DNA of 21,364 nucleotides, from the IMG/VR virus record IMGVR_UViG_3300017989_004145, positions 1 through 21,364 of that record; one strand, given 5' to 3'. Position 1 is the first letter of the stretch. Each line of letters opens with the position of its first letter. The position numbers and the translations under genes are program-made. This DNA comes from a virus. This document shows, in pieces, positions 4,611 through 21,364 of the stretch. Below the pieces are notes generated by a model, which made no database searches, was not told the origin of the DNA, and saw only the letters and a program-made list of their open reading frames with translations.

Positions 4611-4684
4611 AGCCGACTGATGTAATTGGCAAACATATTAGTTTTAGAAACTAAGTTCTCAGGGTTCGAGTCCCTGGTCGGCTA
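4611..4684 (+). tRNA. tRNA-Leu (anticodon TAG), short variable arm
   Basis: Full cloverleaf: acceptor 4611-4617 with 4677-4683, D stem 4620-4623/4633-4636, anticodon stem 4638-4642/4650-4654 with TAG at 4645-4647, T stem 4660-4664/4672-4676, discriminator A. The variable region is only 5 bases, although bacterial tRNA-Leu normally has a long arm. The D arm (AATTGGCAA) is tRNA-Leu-like. Followed by CA, not CCA. Confidence 0.9.
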
Positions 4685-4690
4685 CAAAAA

Positions 4691-4772
4691 GCTCCTTTGG
4701 TGAAATAGGAAAACACAAGTGGCTTAAAACCACTTGCTGAGAAGCTTACTGGTTCGAATCCAGTAGGGAGCA
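4691..4772 (+). tRNA. tRNA-Leu (anticodon TAA)
   Basis: Class II tRNA: acceptor GCTCCTT with AGGGAGC, anticodon TAA at 4725-4727, a variable arm of about 12 bases (GCT-GAGA-AGC), T loop TTCGAAT, discriminator A followed by CA. It reads UUA/UUG. Confidence 0.92.
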
Positions 4773-4780
4773 CATAATAT

Positions 4781-4854
4781 GCCGCTGTGACGCAATTGGC
4801 AGACGTGCTAATCTCAAAAATTAGTTGTTGAAGGTTCAACTCCTTCTAGCGGCA
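4781..4854 (+). tRNA. tRNA-Leu (anticodon CAA), short variable arm
   Basis: Acceptor GCCGCTG with TAGCGGC (one G-T), D loop with GG, anticodon CAA at 4815-4817, variable region TTGTT (5 bases), T loop TTCAACT, discriminator A followed by CA. Its D arm closely resembles bacterial tRNA-Leu, but the long variable arm is missing, as in the TAG tRNA. Confidence 0.9.
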
Positions 4855-4857
4855 CAT

Positions 4858-4929
4858 AGCCTCATCGTCTAAAGGAAAGGATAGTTGGTTCTCAGCCAAC
4901 AGATGAGGGTTCAATTCCCTTTGGGGCTA
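4858..4929 (+). tRNA. tRNA-Glu (anticodon CTC)
   Basis: Acceptor AGCCTCA with TGGGGCT, anticodon stem GTTGG/CCAAC with CTC at 4891-4893, T loop TTCAATT, discriminator A followed by CA. It starts 3 bases after the preceding tRNA; the IF-1 ATG follows 6 bases after its 3' end. Confidence 0.92.
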
Positions 4930-4935
4930 CAAGAA

Positions 4936-5148
4936 ATGAGTAAACAAAAAAAAGATAAAAAGAAAGGCTTTGTTACTAAACACCTTAAAGGAATTGATTT
5001 TGAGGTAGAACTAAAGAACGGAAAGACTATTAGGGCCTATCTCTCTGGAAAAATGAGGCACAACCAGATTAAAACCTTGCCAGGAGATAAAGTGTTAGTG
5101 GAGATTGGTCCGTATGAAGAAAAAGGAAGAATAATTTACAGATTATAA
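4936..5148 (+). CDS. infA: Translation initiation factor IF-1
   Basis: 70 aa from ATG 4936. After a basic N-terminus (MSKQKKDKKK) comes an S1-like OB fold: FEVELKNGK (22-30), then S37-GKMR, LPGDKV (48-53) and PYEEKGRIIYR (59-69). Order and length match bacterial IF-1 (about 72 aa), which binds the 30S A site during initiation. An in-frame start at 4885 would lie inside the tRNA-Glu gene and add a non-IF-1 segment, so 4936 is preferred. The gene lies between two glutamate tRNAs: 6 bases after one, 5 bases before the next, with no Shine-Dalgarno sequence. IF-1 in a phage tRNA array suggests control of host ribosome initiation. Confidence 0.92.
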   Translation: MSKQKKDKKKGFVTKHLKGIDFEVELKNGKTIRAYLSGKMRHNQIKTLPGDKVLVEIGPYEEKGRIIYRL

Positions 5149-5153
5149 ATATT

Positions 5154-5227
5154 GGCCTCATCGTCTAATTTGGCTAGGACGCTAGGCTTTCACTCTGGTA
5201 ATCGGAGTTCGAGTCTCCGTGAGGCCA
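5154..5227 (+). tRNA. tRNA-Glu (anticodon TTC)
   Basis: Acceptor GGCCTCA with TGAGGCC, D loop with GG, anticodon loop CTTTCAC giving TTC, T arm CGGAG/CTCCG around TTCGAGT, discriminator A followed by CA. It starts 5 bases after the IF-1 stop codon. Confidence 0.92.
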
Positions 5228-5232
5228 CAAAA

Positions 5233-5306
5233 CAGGATATGGTGTTTAACGGTCAGCACATATACCTTGGGCGTATATAGTATTGGTTCGAATCCAATTA
5301 TCCTGA
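5233..5306 (+). tRNA. tRNA-Pro (anticodon TGG)
   Basis: Acceptor CAGGATA with TATCCTG, anticodon stem TATAC/GTATA with TGG at 5268-5270, T arm ATTGG/CCAAT around TTCGAAT, discriminator A followed by CA. Confidence 0.92.
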
Positions 5307-5313
5307 CAAATAT

Positions 5314-5400
5314 GTACAGGTGGCAGAATGGAGAATGCACCAGTCTGTAAAACTGGCACCCTCGTGGTAAACATTGTAGGTTCAAATCCTACCCTGTGCA
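5314..5400 (+). tRNA. tRNA-Tyr (anticodon GTA)
   Basis: Class II tRNA of 87 bases: acceptor GTACAGG with CCTGTGC, anticodon stem CCAGT/ACTGG with GTA at 5347-5349, long variable arm, T loop TTCAAAT, discriminator A followed by CA. Confidence 0.92.
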
Positions 5401-5408
5401 CAAGAAGT

Positions 5409-5493
5409 GGAAGATTGTCGCCGAACCGGTAAGGCACCTGTCTTGAAAACAGGAGATGTAATAGTCGTGGGGGTTCGAATCCCTCATCTTCCG
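5409..5493 (+). tRNA. tRNA-Ser (anticodon TGA)
   Basis: Class II tRNA of 85 bases: acceptor GGAAGAT with ATCTTCC, anticodon stem CCTGT/ACAGG with TGA at 5444-5446, long variable arm, T loop TTCGAAT, discriminator G as expected for serine, followed by CA. The 59 bases before the next tRNA show no gene. Confidence 0.92.
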
Positions 5494-5552
5494 CAACAGG
5501 GTGAATGTTATTCATTGAATTATGGGGATATGAGAGAATTAATTTTTCATAA

Positions 5553-5637
5553 GGAAGAATATCCAAATTGGCAAGGAAGTGGTTTACTAAACCATGGCGT
5601 GTAAAAAGCGTTACAGGTTCGAGTCCTGTTTCTTCCG
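5553..5637 (+). tRNA. tRNA-Ser (anticodon ACT)
   Basis: Class II tRNA of 85 bases: acceptor GGAAGAA with TTCTTCC, D loop with GG, anticodon loop TTACTAA, long variable arm, T loop TTCGAGT, discriminator G followed by CA. The usual anticodon for AGU/AGC is GCT; here position 34 is A, which is rare in bacteria. Confidence 0.88.
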
Positions 5638-5663
5638 CAAAAATATGACGGTGTTCTGTGTAA

Positions 5664-5704
5664 TGGGGAGAGAAGCGAGCTTAATAGATTTCCTCTCTCC
5701 CCAT
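5664..5704 (+). repeat. Bulged hairpin of the GGGGAGAG stem family
   Basis: ATGGGGAGAG (5664-5673) pairs with CTCTCCCAT (5696-5704) with one bulged G. It lies between tRNA-Ser and tRNA-His. The left arm resembles that of the hairpins at 2354-2438 and 11344-11373. It may be a processing or stabilising element. Confidence 0.45.
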
Positions 5705-5727
5705 ACAAACATTTAATATCTTCCGGT

Positions 5728-5803
5728 GTGGCTGTAGCTTAAATAGTTAAAGCTTCGGTTTGTGGCACCGATGATGAGGATGCGAGCTCCTCCAGTCACC
5801 CCA
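5728..5803 (+). tRNA. tRNA-His (anticodon GTG)
   Basis: Acceptor GTGGCTG with CAGTCAC (one G-T), anticodon stem TCGGT/ACCGA with GTG at 5762-5764, discriminator C (5800), then an encoded CCA (5801-5803). The base before the acceptor is T, so the usual G-1 is not encoded. D loop AAATAGTTA has A instead of G18 (5745), and the T loop TGCGAGC has G at position 55 (5782). Confidence 0.85.
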
Positions 5804-5813
5804 GAGGATATTA

Positions 5814-5846
5814 AACTAAAAGTAATAAAAATTATTATCTTTAGTT
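5814..5846 (+). terminator. AT-rich hairpin after tRNA-His
   Basis: Bases 5814-5828 pair with 5832-5846 around AAA, with one mismatch and one G-T. There is no run of T after it, so termination would be weak; it may mark the boundary between tRNA-His and the radical-SAM-like gene. Confidence 0.4.
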
Positions 5847-5892
5847 GATGTAATATTCTCTAACTTTAACAAAAAAAGATGAGGTGATTTAA

Positions 5893-6618
5893 ATGGGATA
5901 TAAAGAGAACCCAAAAACGAAAGGAAGTGGAATTTTTTGTTGTATTCCCCAAAAAGGCAGATGCCCAAATAACTGTAACGATTGTTTCTTTCAATCAGGA
6001 CGTTCCTATTTGGAACCATTAGATGAGAATCTACCCAATATGCCGGAAGATACAGAAAACAGAATAGTCAGAGTTAATGACGGAAATGATAGTAATATTC
6101 ATAGGAATTATGTGATAGCGGTAACCAAGGGTTATAAAATGAAGTTTTACAACACAGCAATAGCTGTAGACCTTGAAGAATTTGATGCACCGGTAGTTTT
6201 AACGATAAACCCCGGCAAGATGACTGATGTTAATTTTTATAAGTTGGAAGAAATTCCCAAGAATCTTATGTTTGTCCGTGTAAGGACGAACACTTGGAAT
6301 TTAATTGATGTTGTAGAGCCGGCTATAAGATATTATAGTAAAAGAAAAGTGCCAATAGTCCTGACATTTATGGCTTATTTTACAACTCCGATTAAGAAGG
6401 GACATGAAAACAGTTATATTTTTAGGAAAAGAACCTTGAATTCATATTACGCAATCACTACCAAGGCGTGGGAGAAAGTAATGAAGCCGTACAAATACAA
6501 TCAATGGGTCTACAGTTGTGGTAAAATTGAAGGAGAATTAGGCACTACCAAGTGTGCCAGGTGTGGAAATTGTATCAGAGAATACTTTGTAACATTAGAA
6601 AGAATGAGGGGTGGATAA
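5893..6618 (+). CDS. Radical-SAM-like protein with C-terminal cysteine cluster
   Basis: 241 aa. C24-PNN-C28-ND-C31-F is a CX3CX2C radical SAM motif followed by the usual aromatic residue; C16 and C17 lie just upstream. A second cluster, C221-AR-C224-GN-C227, near the C-terminus could hold an auxiliary Fe-S cluster or zinc. Between them are alternating strand/helix blocks (APVVLTINPGK, VPIVLTFMAY) as in a partial TIM barrel. Radical SAM enzymes cleave SAM to start radical chemistry; several modify tRNA, which would suit this location, but no substrate can be read from the sequence. A GAGGTGAT ribosome binding site precedes the ATG. It is one of two array-embedded genes with a strong Shine-Dalgarno sequence; the other follows at 6620. 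Confidence 0.7.
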   Translation: MGYKENPKTKGSGIFCCIPQKGRCPNNCNDCFFQSGRSYLEPLDENLPNMPEDTENRIVRVNDGNDSNIHRNYVIAVTKGYKMKFYNTAIAVDLEEFDAPVVLTINPGKMTDVNFYKLEEIPKNLMFVRVRTNTWNLIDVVEPAIRYYSKRKVPIVLTFMAYFTTPIKKGHENSYIFRKRTLNSYYAITTKAWEKVMKPYKYNQWVYSCGKIEGELGTTKCARCGNCIREYFVTLERMRGG

Positions 6619-6619
6619 T

Positions 6620-6856
6620 ATGAAATTTACAGATAATCCTGGACTAAAATTTAAAGACATTTCGAGTGAAAAGTACAGAATATATGTTTTTCCAAACGGA
6701 GTACGGTATAAGATAGAAGAACCATTAGCTGTCTGTGCCAGGAGAGACCACGGACAAAGAGTTATAGATAAAAAAGGAAAAGCATACTGGATTAGACCAG
6801 ATTTCATAGCAATTGAATGGGAAAACCGACAGGGTGAGCCGAGGGTAAATTTTTAA
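6620..6856 (+). CDS. Hypothetical protein (78 aa)
   Basis: Not recognised. The protein is mixed and probably beta-rich (YRIYVFPNGVRYKIEEP, AYWIRPDFIAIEW), without cysteine motifs. A GTG nine bases upstream (6611) is also in frame, but ATG 6620 is preferred because GAGG lies 10 bases before it. The start is 2 bases after the radical-SAM-like stop codon, so the two are probably co-translated and may work together. Confidence 0.65.
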   Translation: MKFTDNPGLKFKDISSEKYRIYVFPNGVRYKIEEPLAVCARRDHGQRVIDKKGKAYWIRPDFIAIEWENRQGEPRVNF

Positions 6857-6860
6857 ATAA

Positions 6861-6891
6861 GAGATAAAATAATTTTTTTATGTTTTATCTC
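6861..6891 (+). terminator. Hairpin between the 6620 gene and tRNA-Lys
   Basis: GAGATAAAA (6861-6869) pairs with TTTTATCTC (6883-6891), a perfect 9-bp stem with a T-rich loop and only ATTTAT after it. It could be a weak terminator or a processing signal that separates mRNA from the following tRNAs. Confidence 0.45.
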
Positions 6892-6897
6892 ATTTAT

Positions 6898-6972
6898 GAG
6901 AGTGTAGCTCAATTAGGCCAGAGCACCTGACTCTTAATCAGAAGCGTGTAGGTTCAATTCCTTCCACTCTCA
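6898..6972 (+). tRNA. tRNA-Lys (anticodon CTT)
   Basis: Acceptor GAGAGTG with CACTCTC, D loop with GG, anticodon CTT at 6933-6935, T loop TTCAATT, discriminator A followed by CA. It begins a run of five closely packed tRNAs (gaps 6-8 bases). Confidence 0.92.
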
Positions 6973-6978
6973 CAAAAT

Positions 6979-7050
6979 TGGGACATAGCTTAATAGAAAA
7001 GCAATGGTCTTATATACCATTGAGTATAGGTGCAAATCCTATTGTCCCAA
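6979..7050 (+). tRNA. tRNA-Ile (anticodon TAT)
   Basis: Acceptor TGGGACA with TGTCCCA, anticodon stem ATGGT/ACCAT with TAT at 7011-7013, discriminator A followed by CA. The D loop is AATAGAA with A at position 18 (6995), and the T loop TGCAAAT has G at position 55 (7032). A TAT anticodon reads AUA directly, whereas most bacteria use a lysidine-modified CAT tRNA. Confidence 0.9.
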
Positions 7051-7058
7051 CAAAAAAT

Positions 7059-7130
7059 TGCAGGGTGGTCTAATTGGTAGGACATGAGACTCTGACTTTC
7101 AAAATTTAGGTTCGAATCCTAATCCTGCAA
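7059..7130 (+). tRNA. tRNA-Gln (anticodon CTG)
   Basis: Acceptor TGCAGGG with TCCTGCA, D arm GTC-TAATTGGTAG-GAC, anticodon CTG at 7092-7094, T loop TTCGAAT, discriminator A followed by CA. Confidence 0.9.
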
Positions 7131-7136
7131 CAAAAT

Positions 7137-7208
7137 AGGGTTATAGCTCAATGGATAGAGTAATTGCCTTCGAAGCAATAAATGAGGGTTCAAATCCTTC
7201 TAGCCCTA
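7137..7208 (+). tRNA. tRNA-Arg (anticodon TCG)
   Basis: Acceptor AGGGTTA with TAGCCCT, anticodon stem ATTGC/GCAAT with TCG at 7170-7172, T loop TTCAAAT, discriminator A followed by CA. It is the only tRNA in the window for the CGN box. Confidence 0.92.
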
Positions 7209-7214
7209 CAAGAC

Positions 7215-7285
7215 AGCCATGTAGTTCAATAGCAGAACCGCTGTTTTACATACAGTAAATACGGGTGCAATTCCTGTCGTGGCTA
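7215..7285 (+). tRNA. tRNA-Val (anticodon TAC)
   Basis: Acceptor AGCCATG with CGTGGCT, anticodon stem GCTGT/ACAGT with TAC at 7247-7249, discriminator A followed by CA. D loop AATAGCA has A at position 18 (7231), and T loop TGCAATT has G at position 55 (7267). Confidence 0.9.
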
Positions 7286-7311
7286 CACAAATGTACATTT
7301 TATTCAGGGAG

Positions 7312-7369
7312 TATGACTAATGTCATATCTTGCACATCCTTTCTAAGAGTTGTTGAGAATGTCAACAGC
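7312..7369 (+). repeat. Two hairpins in a tRNA-free gap
   Basis: TATGAC (7312-7317) pairs with GTCATA (7322-7327) around TAAT; this dyad resembles those at 2266-2324. Further on, AGTTGTTGA pairs with TCAACAGCT around GAATG (about 7348-7370, one G-T). The 91-base gap 7286-7376 holds no gene. Confidence 0.5.
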
Positions 7370-7376
7370 TTCTAAT

Positions 7377-7448
7377 GGGGATATAGTTCAATTGGAAGAA
7401 CAGTTCCCTTTTAAGGAATCAATCAGAGTTCGATTCTTTGTATCCCCA
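7377..7448 (+). tRNA. tRNA-Lys (anticodon TTT)
   Basis: Acceptor GGGGATA with TATCCCC, anticodon stem GTTCC/GGAAT with TTT at 7410-7412, T loop TTCGATT, discriminator A followed by CA. Confidence 0.92.
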
Positions 7449-7453
7449 CAAAA

Positions 7454-7527
7454 GGGCTTGTAGCTCTAACGGCTAGAGCAGCTGTTTTGCACTCAGCAGG
7501 TTGCGAGTTCGAATCTCGCCAGGTCCA
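7454..7527 (+). tRNA. tRNA-Ala (anticodon TGC)
   Basis: Acceptor GGGCTTG with CAGGTCC (two G-T), anticodon TGC at 7498-7500, T arm GCGAG/CTCGC around TTCGAAT, discriminator A followed by CA. The G3-U70 pair that marks alanine tRNAs is present (G7456 with T7524). Confidence 0.92.
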
Positions 7528-7533
7528 CAAAAA

Positions 7534-7605
7534 GCCTTCGTAGCTCAAGGGTAGAGCACTTATCTGAAAAGTAAGGGGGTGTTGGTTCAATTCCAACTGA
7601 AGGCA
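7534..7605 (+). tRNA. tRNA-Phe (anticodon GAA)
   Basis: Acceptor GCCTTCG with TGAAGGC, anticodon stem CTTAT/GTAAG with GAA at 7566-7568, T loop TTCAATT, discriminator A followed by CA. Confidence 0.92.
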
Positions 7606-7611
7606 CATAGC

Positions 7612-7685
7612 AGGGCTGTAGCTCAATTGGACAGAGCAGGACTCTTCTAAAGTCAAGACTGTGAGTTCAAGTCTCACTAGCCCTA
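7612..7685 (+). tRNA. tRNA-Arg (anticodon TCT)
   Basis: Acceptor AGGGCTG with TAGCCCT, anticodon TCT at 7646-7648, T arm GTGAG/CTCAC around TTCAAGT, discriminator A followed by CA. The next protein gene starts 7 bases after its 3' end. Confidence 0.92.
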
Positions 7686-7692
7686 CAAAAAT

Positions 7693-8118
7693 ATGATAGT
7701 TATTGCATTATCATTTGGAACAGGTTATCCTAATAAGGAAATAGCAAGGGCTGCAAAAAAAGAAGGTGGAATAATCATTGCCCAAAAAGAAGTTGCAAAG
7801 TATATTGACAAGTGTTCAGTAATTAGCGAACATAGAGATAAGGGTAAGTATCTAGACACAGTAGAGGTATTGTCCCAAGCAAGTAAGTGGATAAATTCCA
7901 AAGAGGAAATTGTTTTAGTAGCCCATGCTGACCACTTGAAAAGGGTTTGGGATACGGCAAACTACCTAGGAATAAATATTTCAAGGGGAGTTAAGGGAAG
8001 TTTCTCTTATAATCCTAAATCTAAACAATGGTGGACCAGAAATGAACTTGTGTTCAAAATATGGAACATTATAGCGAGTATATACTTGAAAATTAAAAAT
8101 TATTTGGGATTCTGGTGA
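7693..8118 (+). CDS. Possible DUF218 (YdcF/SanA-like) protein
   Basis: 141 aa. The weak family resemblance is in EEIVLVAHADHLKRVWDTANYLGI (residues about 76-99), similar to the beta-strand, His, Arg and LG segment of DUF218 proteins, and in the NELVFKIWNI block near the C-terminus, similar to the final RNE segment. DUF218 proteins are thought to act in envelope metabolism; the reaction is unclear. The membrane segment common in that family is absent. The ATG is only 7 bases after tRNA-Arg, with no Shine-Dalgarno sequence, and the last 13 bases overlap the following tRNA-Asp gene, so an intact mRNA and an intact tRNA-Asp cannot come from the same transcript. Confidence 0.55.
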   Translation: MIVIALSFGTGYPNKEIARAAKKEGGIIIAQKEVAKYIDKCSVISEHRDKGKYLDTVEVLSQASKWINSKEEIVLVAHADHLKRVWDTANYLGINISRGVKGSFSYNPKSKQWWTRNELVFKIWNIIASIYLKIKNYLGFW

Positions 8119-8179
8119 AACCTGGTCATCACGGCTCCCTGTCACGGAGTAATTACGGGTTCAAATCCCGTGAGTCCCG
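8106..8179 (+). tRNA. tRNA-Asp (anticodon GTC)
   Basis: Acceptor GGGATTC with GAGTCCC (one T-G), D stem GTGA/TCAC, anticodon GTC at 8141-8143, T arm ACGGG/CCCGT around TTCAAAT, discriminator G (standard for Asp) followed by CA. The first 13 bases are also the end of the preceding protein gene. Confidence 0.9.
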
Positions 8180-8185
8180 CAATAA

Positions 8186-8257
8186 GTGCCTATCGTTTAA
8201 TCGGCAGGACCTCTCCCTTCCAAGGAGATGATGTGAGTTCAAGTCTCATTAGGCACT
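8186..8257 (+). tRNA. tRNA-Gly (anticodon TCC)
   Basis: Acceptor GTGCCTA with TAGGCAC, anticodon stem TCTCC/GGAGA with TCC at 8219-8221, T loop TTCAAGT, discriminator T (standard for Gly) followed by CA. Only glycine tRNA in the window. Confidence 0.92.
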
Positions 8258-8299
8258 CAGGGATGTGGAACTTTAAAACTATATAGTGCTAACAAGTTC

Positions 8300-8375
8300 T
8301 ATCCTCAATCTTTTATTCGTTTGACTGATAAAAGATAGTTGAGCGGAAGTGGGTAGATACTCATTTTCTGCTCAC
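8300..8375 (+). other. Structured gap between tRNA-Gly and tRNA-Trp
   Basis: The 121-base gap 8258-8378 contains a hairpin in which CTCAATCTTTTAT (about 8302-8314) pairs with ATAAAAGATAGTTGAG, with a bulge, and a second possible pairing of GAGCGGAA with TTTCTGCTC that shares the GAG. No tRNA or protein gene is seen. Confidence 0.35.
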
Positions 8376-8378
8376 TAT

Positions 8379-8452
8379 GGGAGTTTAGTTTAACTGGCTT
8401 AAAACATTGGTCTCCAAAACCAATAATGGAGGTTCGAGCCCTTCAGCTCCTG
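8379..8452 (+). tRNA. tRNA-Trp (anticodon CCA)
   Basis: Acceptor GGGAGTT with AGCTCCT (two G-T), anticodon stem TTGGT/ACCAA with CCA at 8414-8416, T loop TTCGAGC, discriminator G as in bacterial tRNA-Trp. It is followed by CT and then directly by the next tRNA. The anticodon does not read TGA, so TGA is a stop here. Confidence 0.9.
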
Positions 8453-8454
8453 CT

Positions 8455-8525
8455 GGTAACTTAGAGGAACAGTACCTCATCGGTCTCATAAGCCGGAGTT
8501 CTTAGTGCAATTCTAAGAGTTACCA
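8455..8525 (+). tRNA. tRNA-Met (anticodon CAT), probably elongator
   Basis: Acceptor GGTAACT with AGTTACC, anticodon loop CTCATAA with CAT at 8487-8489, discriminator A followed by CA. The 1-72 pair is G-C and the anticodon stem lacks three G-C pairs, which argues against an initiator. The D loop AACAGTA has A at position 18 (8471) and the T loop TGCAATT has G at 55 (8507). A lysidine tRNA-Ile is less likely because a TAT tRNA is present. Only 2 bases separate it from tRNA-Trp. Confidence 0.87.
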
Positions 8526-8532
8526 CAATTTG

Positions 8533-8607
8533 GCCAGTATAGCTCAAGTCTGGTAGAGCTACTATCTTGTAAATAGTAGGTTAGGGGTTCAAATCCTCTT
8601 GCTGGCT
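8533..8607 (+). tRNA. tRNA-Thr (anticodon TGT)
   Basis: Acceptor GCCAGTA with TGCTGGC, anticodon stem ACTAT/ATAGT with TGT at 8568-8570, T loop TTCAAAT, discriminator T followed by CA. The next protein gene starts 7 bases later. Confidence 0.92.
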
Positions 8608-8614
8608 CAAAAAT

Positions 8615-8887
8615 ATGAAAATTAAAACAACATTTTCAAATAAATACATTAATAAATTATGCCAAGAGATTAAAGATTGGCCGGATAATATTAAATGTAA
8701 AGACAAAAAATGTATTGAAGATATTGATAAAAATGCGAATTGTAGAGAATTTATATCTTTTTTGAACAAGATGAAAGGTCTAGTGGACAAGGGAATATTG
8801 AAAGGAGATGAAGAAGGATATTATATAGAGTATAAATGTACAGAAGAAGAATATAAAGAAATAAAGAAAAATAATTTTGGCTTGTAG
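8615..8887 (+). CDS. Hypothetical protein between tRNA-Thr and tRNA-Ile (90 aa)
   Basis: Not recognised. A soluble, lysine-rich protein with four cysteines (LCQEIKDW, IKCKDKKCIE, ANCREF), possibly metal binding, and a charged C-terminal helix (CTEEEYKEIKKNN). The ATG lies 7 bases after tRNA-Thr without a Shine-Dalgarno sequence, and the TAG stop lies inside the tRNA-Ile gene (10-base overlap). The same arrangement is seen at 7693-8118. Confidence 0.62.
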   Translation: MKIKTTFSNKYINKLCQEIKDWPDNIKCKDKKCIEDIDKNANCREFISFLNKMKGLVDKGILKGDEEGYYIEYKCTEEEYKEIKKNNFGL

Positions 8888-8950
8888 CTTAAATAGTAAA
8901 GCCTTCCTCTGATATGGGAAAGAGTATAGGTGCAAGTCCTATCAAGCCAA
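8878..8950 (+). tRNA. tRNA-Ile (anticodon GAT)
   Basis: Acceptor TGGCTTG with CAAGCCA, anticodon stem TTCCT/GGGAA (one T-G) with GAT at 8911-8913, discriminator A followed by CA. The D loop AAATAGTA has A at position 18 (8895) and the T loop TGCAAGT has G at 55 (8932). The first 10 bases overlap the end of the preceding gene. Confidence 0.9.
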
Positions 8951-8956
8951 CAAGAT

Positions 8957-9023
8957 AAGTTGTAGGAGGTTGCCAACCAATAGGGCAATTGGTATTTTCT
9001 AGGAAAATACCTTACTATAACTT
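8957..9023 (+). ncRNA. Three-way-junction RNA, tRNA-like remnant or new small RNA
   Basis: AAGTTGTAG (8957-8965) pairs with CTATAACTT (9015-9023, one G-T). Within it, TTGCC (8970-8974) pairs with GGCAA (8984-8988) and GGTATTTT (8991-8998) pairs with AAAATACC (9004-9011) around CTAGG. This gives an acceptor-like stem and two arms but no T arm, 6 bases after tRNA-Ile. It does not fold as a normal tRNA because the second arm has 8 bp and a 5-base loop. Confidence 0.5.
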
Positions 9024-9054
9024 CATACAATTTATTGTTTAAGGTTTTCTTTTA

Positions 9055-9138
9055 CCTAGGAAATTAATAGTTTCCTAGGAGGTGGAGAAAGGTTTTATAT
9101 TTTTTTAGTTATAGTTTTAGTTTTCCCTTCTCCACCTC
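9055..9138 (+). repeat. Tandem hairpins in the gap before the 9192 gene
   Basis: CCTAGGAAA (9055-9063) pairs with TTTCCTAGG (9071-9079). Next, GAGGTGGAGAA (9079-9089) pairs with TTCTCCACCTC (9128-9138) around a T-rich loop of 38 bases. The second left arm belongs to the purine-rich stem family also found at 2354, 5664 and 11344. The region 8951-9191 holds no protein gene. Confidence 0.5.
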
Positions 9139-9165
9139 TCAGGAAATTATTTTGGACTTTAAAAT

Positions 9166-9178
9166 CTAGAGTCAAGAA
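9166..9178 (+). repeat. Left arm of an inverted repeat around the 9192 gene
   Basis: CTAGAGTCAAGAA is an exact inverted copy of TTCTTGACTCTAG at 9644-9656. Together they bracket the 9192-9626 gene within the tRNA array. Confidence 0.6.
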
Positions 9179-9191
9179 CGGTATAAAAATT

Positions 9192-9626
9192 ATGAACGAA
9201 ACACCGTTGAACAAAGAAAAAATAAAATCTAAGAGAAAATTAAAATATAACTTGGAATTGCTAAAAGGATTTCCAGAATTGGTTGGATGGCTTATACAGA
9301 TAGTTCCCTATAGACAAATTGAAAAATATGTGTATATATCAGACTATAAAGATTCTCTTGATGAAAAAAGAATTGTAGTTAGACTATACACTAAGAATTA
9401 CTATTACCCCATTCATGTCATCAAACCAAAGAATGGAAAATCTAAAGGTTATCTTGGTGCCTATGTCCAAAACCGAAAACCAAGAGCTGGAGAAGAGTGG
9501 ACAAGGGGAAATGACTTGCCGGATGGAGAATGTAATAATGAAACTTGGAACGATATTAAGAATGGGATTCTCAAGTATGAATTTGTAAAGGTTGTGAAAA
9601 ACTCTGAATATGAGGAGGATAAATAA
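9192..9626 (+). CDS. Hypothetical protein bracketed by inverted repeats (144 aa)
   Basis: Not recognised. A lysine-rich N-terminus is followed by segments with alternating hydrophobic residues (KRIVVRLYTKNYYYPIHVI) and a polar tail ending EYEEDK. A short GKSKGYLGAYVQNRKPRAGEEWTRGNDLPDGE stretch (about residues 82-113) looks like a loop-rich domain. No cysteines beyond one are seen. The gene has no Shine-Dalgarno sequence, is not placed directly after a tRNA, and lies between the 13-bp inverted repeats at 9166 and 9644, so it may have been inserted into the array as a unit. Confidence 0.65.
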   Translation: MNETPLNKEKIKSKRKLKYNLELLKGFPELVGWLIQIVPYRQIEKYVYISDYKDSLDEKRIVVRLYTKNYYYPIHVIKPKNGKSKGYLGAYVQNRKPRAGEEWTRGNDLPDGECNNETWNDIKNGILKYEFVKVVKNSEYEEDK

Positions 9627-9643
9627 GTAAAATAAACTAATTT

Positions 9644-9656
9644 TTCTTGACTCTAG
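9644..9656 (-). repeat. Right arm of the inverted repeat around the 9192 gene
   Basis: TTCTTGACTCTAG is the exact reverse complement of 9166-9178. It contains a TTGACT that could be a -35 box, but no -10 box stands at the right distance on the plus strand. Confidence 0.6.
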
Positions 9657-9665
9657 TTTTTAGAT

Positions 9666-9737
9666 TCTACCGTAGCTCAATGGTAGAGCTGTCCCCTGTT
9701 AAGGGAAGGGTTAGAGGTTCGAGTCCTCTCGGTAGAG
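9666..9737 (+). tRNA. tRNA-Asn (anticodon GTT)
   Basis: Acceptor TCTACCG with CGGTAGA, anticodon loop CTGTTAA with GTT at 9698-9700 (outermost stem pair G-A), T loop TTCGAGT, discriminator G as in bacterial tRNA-Asn, followed by CA. Confidence 0.92.
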
Positions 9738-9743
9738 CAATAT

Positions 9744-9817
9744 TCCAGAGTAGACAAAATGGTAAAGTCGCAAGGCTTTGAACCTTGTATCTGGTGGTTC
9801 GAATCCACCCTCTGGAA
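9744..9817 (+). tRNA. tRNA-Gln (anticodon TTG)
   Basis: Acceptor TCCAGAG with CTCTGGA, anticodon stem CAAGG/CCTTG with TTG at 9778-9780, T arm GGTGG/CCACC around TTCGAAT, discriminator A followed by CA. Confidence 0.92.
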
Positions 9818-9822
9818 CATAA

Positions 9823-9898
9823 GATATGGTAGCCAAGTCTGGTTAGAAGGCAACGGATTGCAAACCCGTTTACGTGAGTTCAAATCTCACCCATATCT
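9823..9898 (+). tRNA. tRNA-Cys (anticodon GCA)
   Basis: Acceptor GATATGG with CCATATC, anticodon loop TTGCAAA with GCA at 9860-9862, T arm GTGAG/CTCAC around TTCAAAT, discriminator T (standard for Cys) followed by CA. Last tRNA of the array; the endopeptidase gene starts 7 bases later. Confidence 0.9.
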
Positions 9899-9905
9899 CA
9901 AACAT

Positions 9906-20024: not shown

Positions 20025-21364
20025 TTATCCTTTGATTACTGCTAATGGTTTTAATTCTACAAGGGTTTCAACTAAATCTTCTTGATTTTTCATAACAACA
20101 CTAATGTCCTTATAAGCGGAGCTGGCTTCGTCTAGGTCTTCTTTATATCTAATAGCGTGAATAACCCCCCTTTTGTCGAGTTTTTCTTTTTCTTTTTCTA
20201 TATTAAGAGTTTTCCTTGCTTCTGTTCTACTCATAACCCTTCCTGCTCCATGAGAACATGATTTAAAACTATCAGGATTTCCTTTTCCTTTTACGATATA
20301 TGAATTACTTCCTTGACTTCCCGGAATAATCCCAATCGTATCTTTATATGCTTTTGTTGCTCCTTTCCTGTGAACCCAGACATTTCTCCCAAAATGGTTT
20401 TCGAGTGAGGCGTAATTATGGGCTATATTTATCATCTCTGATATTTCAATATCTTTGGGTAAATTAACCTCTAAAGAAAAAGCTTCAATAACTCTTTCCA
20501 TCATTAATTTCCTGTTAGCTAAAGCAAATTCAACACAATACTGCATTTCTTTAATATATGCTTGACCTAAACAAGAATCTATTGGGAGAAAAGCCAAATC
20601 CCAAAAAAGTGGAACCCTTGAGTACCATTTCTTGTTTACCTTTTTAGCTTCATTATTATAATACTTTGCAACCTGATATCCTAAATTTCTACTGCCAGAA
20701 TGAATCATCAACCAGATAAATCCGTTTGAACCCTTTTGAATTTCAATGAAATGATTACCCCCACCCAGGGTTCCGATTTGAGTTCTTGCTCTTTCAAATT
20801 CCTTGAAAACAACTAAATCTTCAGATATCTTCGCTTTTCTTAAGTCTGGCATTAACTCAAACTCACAAACCTTTTTGTGGTGCTTAAATCCAACTGGTAT
20901 ACTTAATCTGATTCTTCCCATTATTCTTTTAAGGGTATTAGTATTAATTTCTTTTATGGGAGTTTTGATAGCACACATGCCACAATTATGAACAAATACA
21001 CCAGCAGATAAAGCGAAATTATGATACTTTTCTACAGTTAAACAATAAACATCTTCTTTTTTATTTATTTTTCTAACAGAAATTACTTTATGATTATTTC
21101 TATTTTTATTCCAAGAAGCACCAAACCCATATTTTTTACCTATTTCTGATGATTTCTTTCTGCCTTTTTCTGATTTATTATATTTCATTAAATACTCTTT
21201 TCCTCTTTGTCCAGCTAATTTGTCTTGTTCTTTTTTCTTTTTACTTTTGTTATATTCGGTTATGTTTTTTATAGCTACTGTTTTCTTCTTATCTTTAAAT
21301 TTATCATCATAAAATCCATTTTCTTTTAAAGTTTTCATTCTCTTTTCCTTAAAATCATCTGAAT
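20025..21364 (-). CDS. rtcB: RtcB RNA ligase with intein, 5' part cut off by the window
   Basis: The frame stays open through the right edge. After residues of an intein comes FALSAGVFVHN directly before CGMCAIK (Cys codon 20982-20984). From there 319 residues match RtcB: GGGNHFIEIQ, HSGSRNLG, PGSQGSNSYIV and SHGAGR (the histidine that takes GMP). RtcB joins 2',3'-cyclic phosphate and 5'-OH RNA ends and can repair tRNAs cut by anticodon nucleases. An internal ATG at 21338 is not the true start. Next to a full tRNA set, tRNA repair is a likely role. Key residues in the visible part are intact. Confidence 0.9.
   Translation of the reverse strand, partial: SDDFKEKRMKTLKENGFYDDKFKDKKKTVAIKNITEYNKSKKKKEQDKLAGQRGKEYLMKYNKSEKGRKKSSEIGKKYGFGASWNKNRNNHKVISVRKINKKEDVYCLTVEKYHNFALSAGVFVHNCGMCAIKTPIKEINTNTLKRIMGRIRLSIPVGFKHHKKVCEFELMPDLRKAKISEDLVVFKEFERARTQIGTLGGGNHFIEIQKGSNGFIWLMIHSGSRNLGYQVAKYYNNEAKKVNKKWYSRVPLFWDLAFLPIDSCLGQAYIKEMQYCVEFALANRKLMMERVIEAFSLEVNLPKDIEISEMINIAHNYASLENHFGRNVWVHRKGATKAYKDTIGIIPGSQGSNSYIVKGKGNPDSFKSCSHGAGRVMSRTEARKTLNIEKEKEKLDKRGVIHAIRYKEDLDEASSAYKDISVVMKNQEDLVETLVELKPLAVIKG
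20985..21364 (-). mobile_element. C-terminal part of an intein inside RtcB
   Basis: Codons up to 20985 end in VHN, and the next residue is cysteine, the standard intein C-terminal junction (HN|C). Block F-type text NHKVISVRKI and YCLTVEKYHNFAL precede it. Upstream, lysine-rich segments (KGRKKSSEIGKKYGFGASWNKNR) may be part of a homing endonuclease, but no certain nuclease motif is visible. Insertion immediately before the catalytic cysteine of RtcB matches the site used by inteins in archaeal RtcB proteins. The N-terminal half lies beyond the window. Confidence 0.85.

Follow-up and report, generated by a model that had tools for sequence, protein, structure and literature searches.

The virus-classed stretch of DNA analysed here, an entire IMG/VR record of 21,364 bases (hereafter the window) that is probably a fragment, contains five tRNA genes in which the elbow bases G18 and U55 are replaced by A18 and G55, a covarying two-base replacement in which every other elbow base is kept. 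The contact between G18 and pseudouridine 55 is described in reviews as near universal (PMC7912444, PMC4810234). We consider it likely, with a probability of about 0.7, that the tRNAs from these five genes are functional and have an alternative elbow, A18/G55 having replaced G18/U55 as a unit, and that this form persists because the likely Patescibacteria host would not depend on pseudouridine 55.

Analysis with ARAGORN and Rfam identified 28 tRNA genes in the window, which also codes for phage-type replication genes (an exonuclease and a primase-helicase) and for two proteins from the context of tRNA/RNA repair. The features of relevance are:

4611..9899, plus strand: cluster of 28 tRNA genes; the 23 other than the five listed next carry canonical G18 and U55
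5728..5800, plus strand: tRNA-His(GTG), A18 at 5745, G55 at 5782, T-loop UGCGA, A53-U61, CCA encoded at 5801-5803
6979..7050, plus strand: tRNA-Ile(TAT), A18 at 6995, G55 at 7032, T-loop UGCAA
7215..7285, plus strand: tRNA-Val(TAC), A18 at 7231, G55 at 7267, T-loop UGCAA
8455..8525, plus strand: tRNA-Met or Ile2 (CAT), A18 at 8471, G55 at 8507, T-loop UGCAA
8878..8950, plus strand: tRNA-Ile(GAT), A18 at 8895, G55 at 8932, T-loop UGCAA
15104..15793, minus strand: RlaP-type RNA-repair nucleotidyltransferase (Pfam PF10127, 3e-24)
20025..21338, minus strand: RtcB RNA ligase with an intein remnant (Pfam PF01139, 2.8e-91; PF14890, 1.7e-10)

The remnant of the intein splicing domain precedes the RtcB reading frame (20025-21338), and since the record ends just past RtcB, the intein is cut. 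A near-identical independent record (IMGVR_UViG_3300017987_000313) contains the same 28 tRNAs, including the same five with A18/G55.

Positions 18 and 55 were assigned by Sprinzl numbering taken from the ARAGORN structures. The initial annotation had placed the exchange in exactly these five tRNAs (His, Ile-TAT, Val, Met and Ile-GAT), and all ten of its coordinates proved exact; its reading of the other 23 tRNAs as G18/U55 also holds, including two with AGG in the D loop in which G18 is present. The split into five and 23 is thus perfect (Fisher p = 1e-5). Each of the five has all 21 cloverleaf stem pairs and a 7-base T-loop, covers the whole Rfam model RF00005 (1-71/71) and scores 54-69 bits versus a gathering score of 29. 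Compared to the canonical tRNA elbow, the cloverleaf, G19-C56 (as previously claimed), U54-A58, a purine at 57, A14, U8 and U33 are retained, and 15-48 is A-U. None of the five combines G18 with U55, however; the 18-55 combination is A-G, so that neither pseudouridine 55 nor Gm18 can be present. An additional feature, absent from the initial annotation, is A53-U61 in tRNA-His where G53-C61 is usual.

An apparent A18 could in principle arise from a register or detection artefact, with G18 being present under another D-loop alignment. While some D loops in other loci do contain AGG and are ambiguous in this respect, GG occurs in none of the five D loops of the window, and the register of position 18 is supported by linked 19-56 changes in related tRNAs (A19-U56, U19-A56 and C19-G56, several of them together with A18-G55). 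A register shift was therefore rejected, and we regard the chance of such an artefact as negligible.

A first IMG/VR pattern scan for tRNAs with A18 and G55 returned at least 120 stretches. Among 1301 classifiable tRNAs of the fetched loci, which came from a bait-pattern search and may include IMG/VR records that are bacterial arrays rather than viruses, 489 were A18/G55 and 804 G18/U55, while the single changes A18/U55 and G18/G55 accounted for seven and one, respectively. Restricting the count to non-bait tRNAs of the viral loci gave 189 A18/G55, 528 G18/U55, four A18/U55 and two unambiguous G18/G55 tRNAs. Three IMG/VR scans with identical D-arm constraints and all else equal yielded 82 loci for A18/G55, six for A18/U55 and four for G18/G55. 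Most of the apparent G18/G55 exceptions have AGG in the D loop, which is compatible with A18-G19-G20, and were rejected as such. With positions 18 and 55 masked, same-isotype pairs of at least 80% identity comprised 43 double and no single changes; at 72% identity, 223 double and six single changes were counted. Numerous relatives with one change only were looked for and were seen neither in the scans nor among the close pairs. These data bear out the proposal that the 18-55 contact is exchanged as one unit: that both bases nearly always change jointly in hundreds of tRNAs from phages, tRNA arrays and bacteria with small genomes gives the combination the appearance of a real alternative elbow. 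The swap in this phage is real, but it is not peculiar to it, as A18/G55 forms a recurring class that as a whole spans all 20 isotypes. The 262 viral A18/G55 tRNAs fall into 245 clusters at 80% identity, which indicates many origins.

The same counts bear on relaxed selection, under which the five would be decaying or spare tRNAs with a drifted elbow. Redundancy is frequent among phage and array tRNAs, and the tRNA-His has lost G53-C61 in addition, yet all 21 stem pairs are intact at Rfam scores of 54-69 bits, and drift predicts many single changes rather than the ratio of 43 to 0 in close pairs. Pseudogene drift was rejected on these grounds, and relaxed selection, largely refuted by the covariation, appears very improbable.

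Common descent, in which the five tRNAs would go back to a single ancestral set with A18/G55 by acquisition or duplication, seems unlikely for a different reason. The two tRNAs for Ile are mutual best matches in the window (70%) and have A18/G55 tRNAs as nearest neighbours, but with 18 and 55 masked the closest neighbours of those for His, Val and Met have G18/U55, and the A18/G55 class taken together shows great diversity. The position of these three likewise upholds the earlier view that a block duplication is not the source. Taken with the double changes in close pairs, the nearest-neighbour results indicate that the 18/55 state has switched as a unit, independently of the remaining molecule, many times.

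The sequence class itself points to a possible geometry. A18/G55 tRNAs have a purine at 57 in 100%, A58 in 96% and G53-C61 in about 100% of cases, and U54 is mostly kept. Positions 54-58 read TGCAA or TGCGA in 437 of 481 of them, the share of A57 rises from 22% to 55%, and the consensus is otherwise unchanged. This is the consensus of the UGNRA T-loop, or type R1 lonepair triloop, known from rRNA and the TPP riboswitch, where a composite GNRA tetraloop commonly arises through pairing of the loop G with an A from outside (PMC2258182). All five tRNAs of the window have such a U-G-N-R-A loop (UGCGA or UGCAA) with an outside A available for the loop G, and the loop G and the outside A change together in close pairs (43 double and no single changes). 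What differs is the origin of the outside A, which would be base 18 in the D loop of a tRNA, adjoining G19-C56. Because it is residue 18 that intercalates from outside between bases 57 and 58 in tRNA (PMC4810234), A18 together with G55 is the partner combination expected from the UGNRA consensus. A18 would accordingly still slide between T-loop bases 57 and 58 and form an A-G pair with G55, probably sheared, instead of the G18-pseudouridine 55 contact; A18 and G55-C56-R57 would then constitute a composite GNRA tetraloop as in the UGNRA T-loops of other RNAs, with G19-C56 and U54-A58 retained beside the A18-G55 pair. Such an elbow would be independent of pseudouridine 55. A near-isostructural elbow of this kind appears to us the best reading, with the pair geometry as well as function in translation being predicted.

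A search of 84,980 prokaryote genomes with the strict A18/G55 pattern returned 104 stretches. Matches in Patescibacteria were single chromosomal tRNAs, mostly Thr and His, array matches were located in tRNA arrays of Verrucomicrobia, Planctomycetota and Myxococcales or deltaproteobacterial MAGs, and those in Nostocales belonged to a conserved tRNA-like element. In one Staskawiczbacteria MAG (G001), A18/G55 is found in seven of 46 tRNAs, among them what are apparently the only tRNAs for Tyr-GTA, Cys-GCA and Thr-TGT; within the order of this MAG, 12 of 147 genomes contain A18/G55 and none of the 147 A18/U55. A TruB search of the MAG gave no match, although the MAG may be incomplete, and as no tRNA-Asn was found in it, the status of the Tyr and Cys tRNAs as the only ones is uncertain. 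That apparently sole Tyr and Cys tRNAs have A18/G55 in a genome with no detected TruB makes the form probably functional.

The initial annotation had further proposed that the five tRNAs avoid TruB. That G55 cannot become pseudouridine is correct and chemically trivial, but as a reason for the exchange avoidance is at most tentative: TruB is detectable in only 12 of 60 surveyed genomes of the order, so such a host may leave nothing to avoid. TruB was detected in three of 18 A18/G55-positive Patescibacteria, as compared with 188 among the 287 genomes examined from the phylum (p = 5e-5); against the order (12/60) the difference is not significant. TruB loss was therefore rejected as an independent correlate, as its absence tracks lineage and offers no separate evidence for an association with A18/G55. 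TruB is also present in several genomes carrying A18/G55 tRNA arrays.

A hint at the host comes from the tRNA 3' ends. An N73-CA tail, as opposed to CCA, is encoded by 26 of the 27 window tRNAs without encoded CC (26 of 28 genes). The share of N73-CA among non-CC tRNAs amounts to 73-83% in four Patescibacteria sets and to 0-14% in Verrucomicrobia and Planctomycetota arrays, deltaproteobacterial and other arrays, and pooled other viral loci. The 3' ends thus suggest a Patescibacteria host for the phage, and N73-CA may be a sign of a specific route of 3' processing as well as of the host.

A further explanation is evasion: the swap would hide tRNAs of mobile elements from host factors reading G18 and U or pseudouridine 55 (T-loop nucleases, TruB, TrmH), while the RNA-repair kit of RlaP and RtcB would deal with other damage. 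Viral contigs and tRNA arrays often contain A18/G55, array and phage tRNAs swap 19-56 as well with pairing kept, and phage tRNAs have been proposed to escape nucleases through anticodon-loop changes (PMC10264068). The presence of RlaP and RtcB in the window and the frequency of A18/G55 in mobile elements are compatible with evasion and no proof of it. On the other hand, no nuclease or enzyme of such specificity was identified in this analysis, just five of 28 tRNAs are changed, and A18/G55 also occurs in ordinary chromosomal Patescibacteria tRNAs, for which reasons we view evasion as a rather improbable cause. Similarly tentative, and in our estimation doubtful, is a broader proposal in which A18-G55 would be a second, modification-independent elbow (a composite GNRA of D- and T-loop) that arose independently on many occasions, with phages and arrays using it to obtain tRNAs that both fold without pseudouridine 55 and escape host enzymes or defence nucleases recognising G18/pseudouridine 55.

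The phage tRNAs with anticodon-loop changes (PMC10264068) resemble those of the window as a phage tRNA cluster that departs systematically from the host consensus; the change differs in lying in the elbow instead of the anticodon loop, and the proposed nuclease link concerns the anticodon-loop changes. Likewise, the tRNA array units of plasmids and mycobacteria (PMC5966550, PMC12803027) are dense clusters on mobile elements, and some arrays found in this study are rich in A18/G55. Papers on phage tRNAs and arrays treat anticodon-loop changes or gene content, and not the elbow. Our literature search, which covered few subscription journals, returned no earlier report of an A18-G55 elbow, so that a precedent is possible. 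Work of the Steinberg laboratory on engineered elbows would be the likeliest place for one. If the replacement is coherent and evolved repeatedly, the tRNA elbow would have a second stable solution; A18/G55 tRNAs would offer a natural test of the purpose of pseudouridine 55 and TruB, would supply ready-made orthogonal tRNA scaffolds, and would add the elbow to the sites where tRNAs of mobile elements depart from those of the host.

Phages Silvergun, DC31 and pf16 contained no A18/G55 among their numberable tRNAs, and comparison of the window tRNA-Ile(GAT) with the phage collection gave no match. The one plasmid array examined, on plasmid 3 of Variovorax sp. RA8, likewise had no A18/G55 among numberable tRNAs; a gene of the RNA ligase family is embedded in this array.

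Several minor observations were made in the surveyed loci. The 19-56 pair is also swapped with compensation (A19-U56, U19-A56, C19-G56), notably in tRNA-Arg and in some cases together with A18/G55, in arrays L160, L210, L227, L168 and L165 and in viral loci L035, L045, L055, L079 and L245. Each of the Patescibacteria genomes G001, G002 and G003 has a second tRNA-His(GTG) with A18/G55 beside the canonical one. G18/C55 (T-loop TCC), another class unable to carry pseudouridine 55, is common in chromosomal Patescibacteria tRNAs (L326-L385), with 4/46 in G001, 3/49 in G002 and 8/37 in G003. In Nostocales, a conserved tRNA-like element (AAAAGCTTACATAC...AGCTTTT) combines an A18/G55 elbow with a variable anticodon (L132, L133, L156, L161, L163, L179, L185, L213 and others, e.g. 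L179:5266-5337). The copy in L179 precedes an ORF of 241 aa (5976-6701) by about 0.6 kb, and after this ORF comes another tRNA-like gene, with G18/U55 (6734-6807); in most other Nostocales loci, a second tRNA-like gene is located 1.2-1.8 kb from the A18/G55 element.
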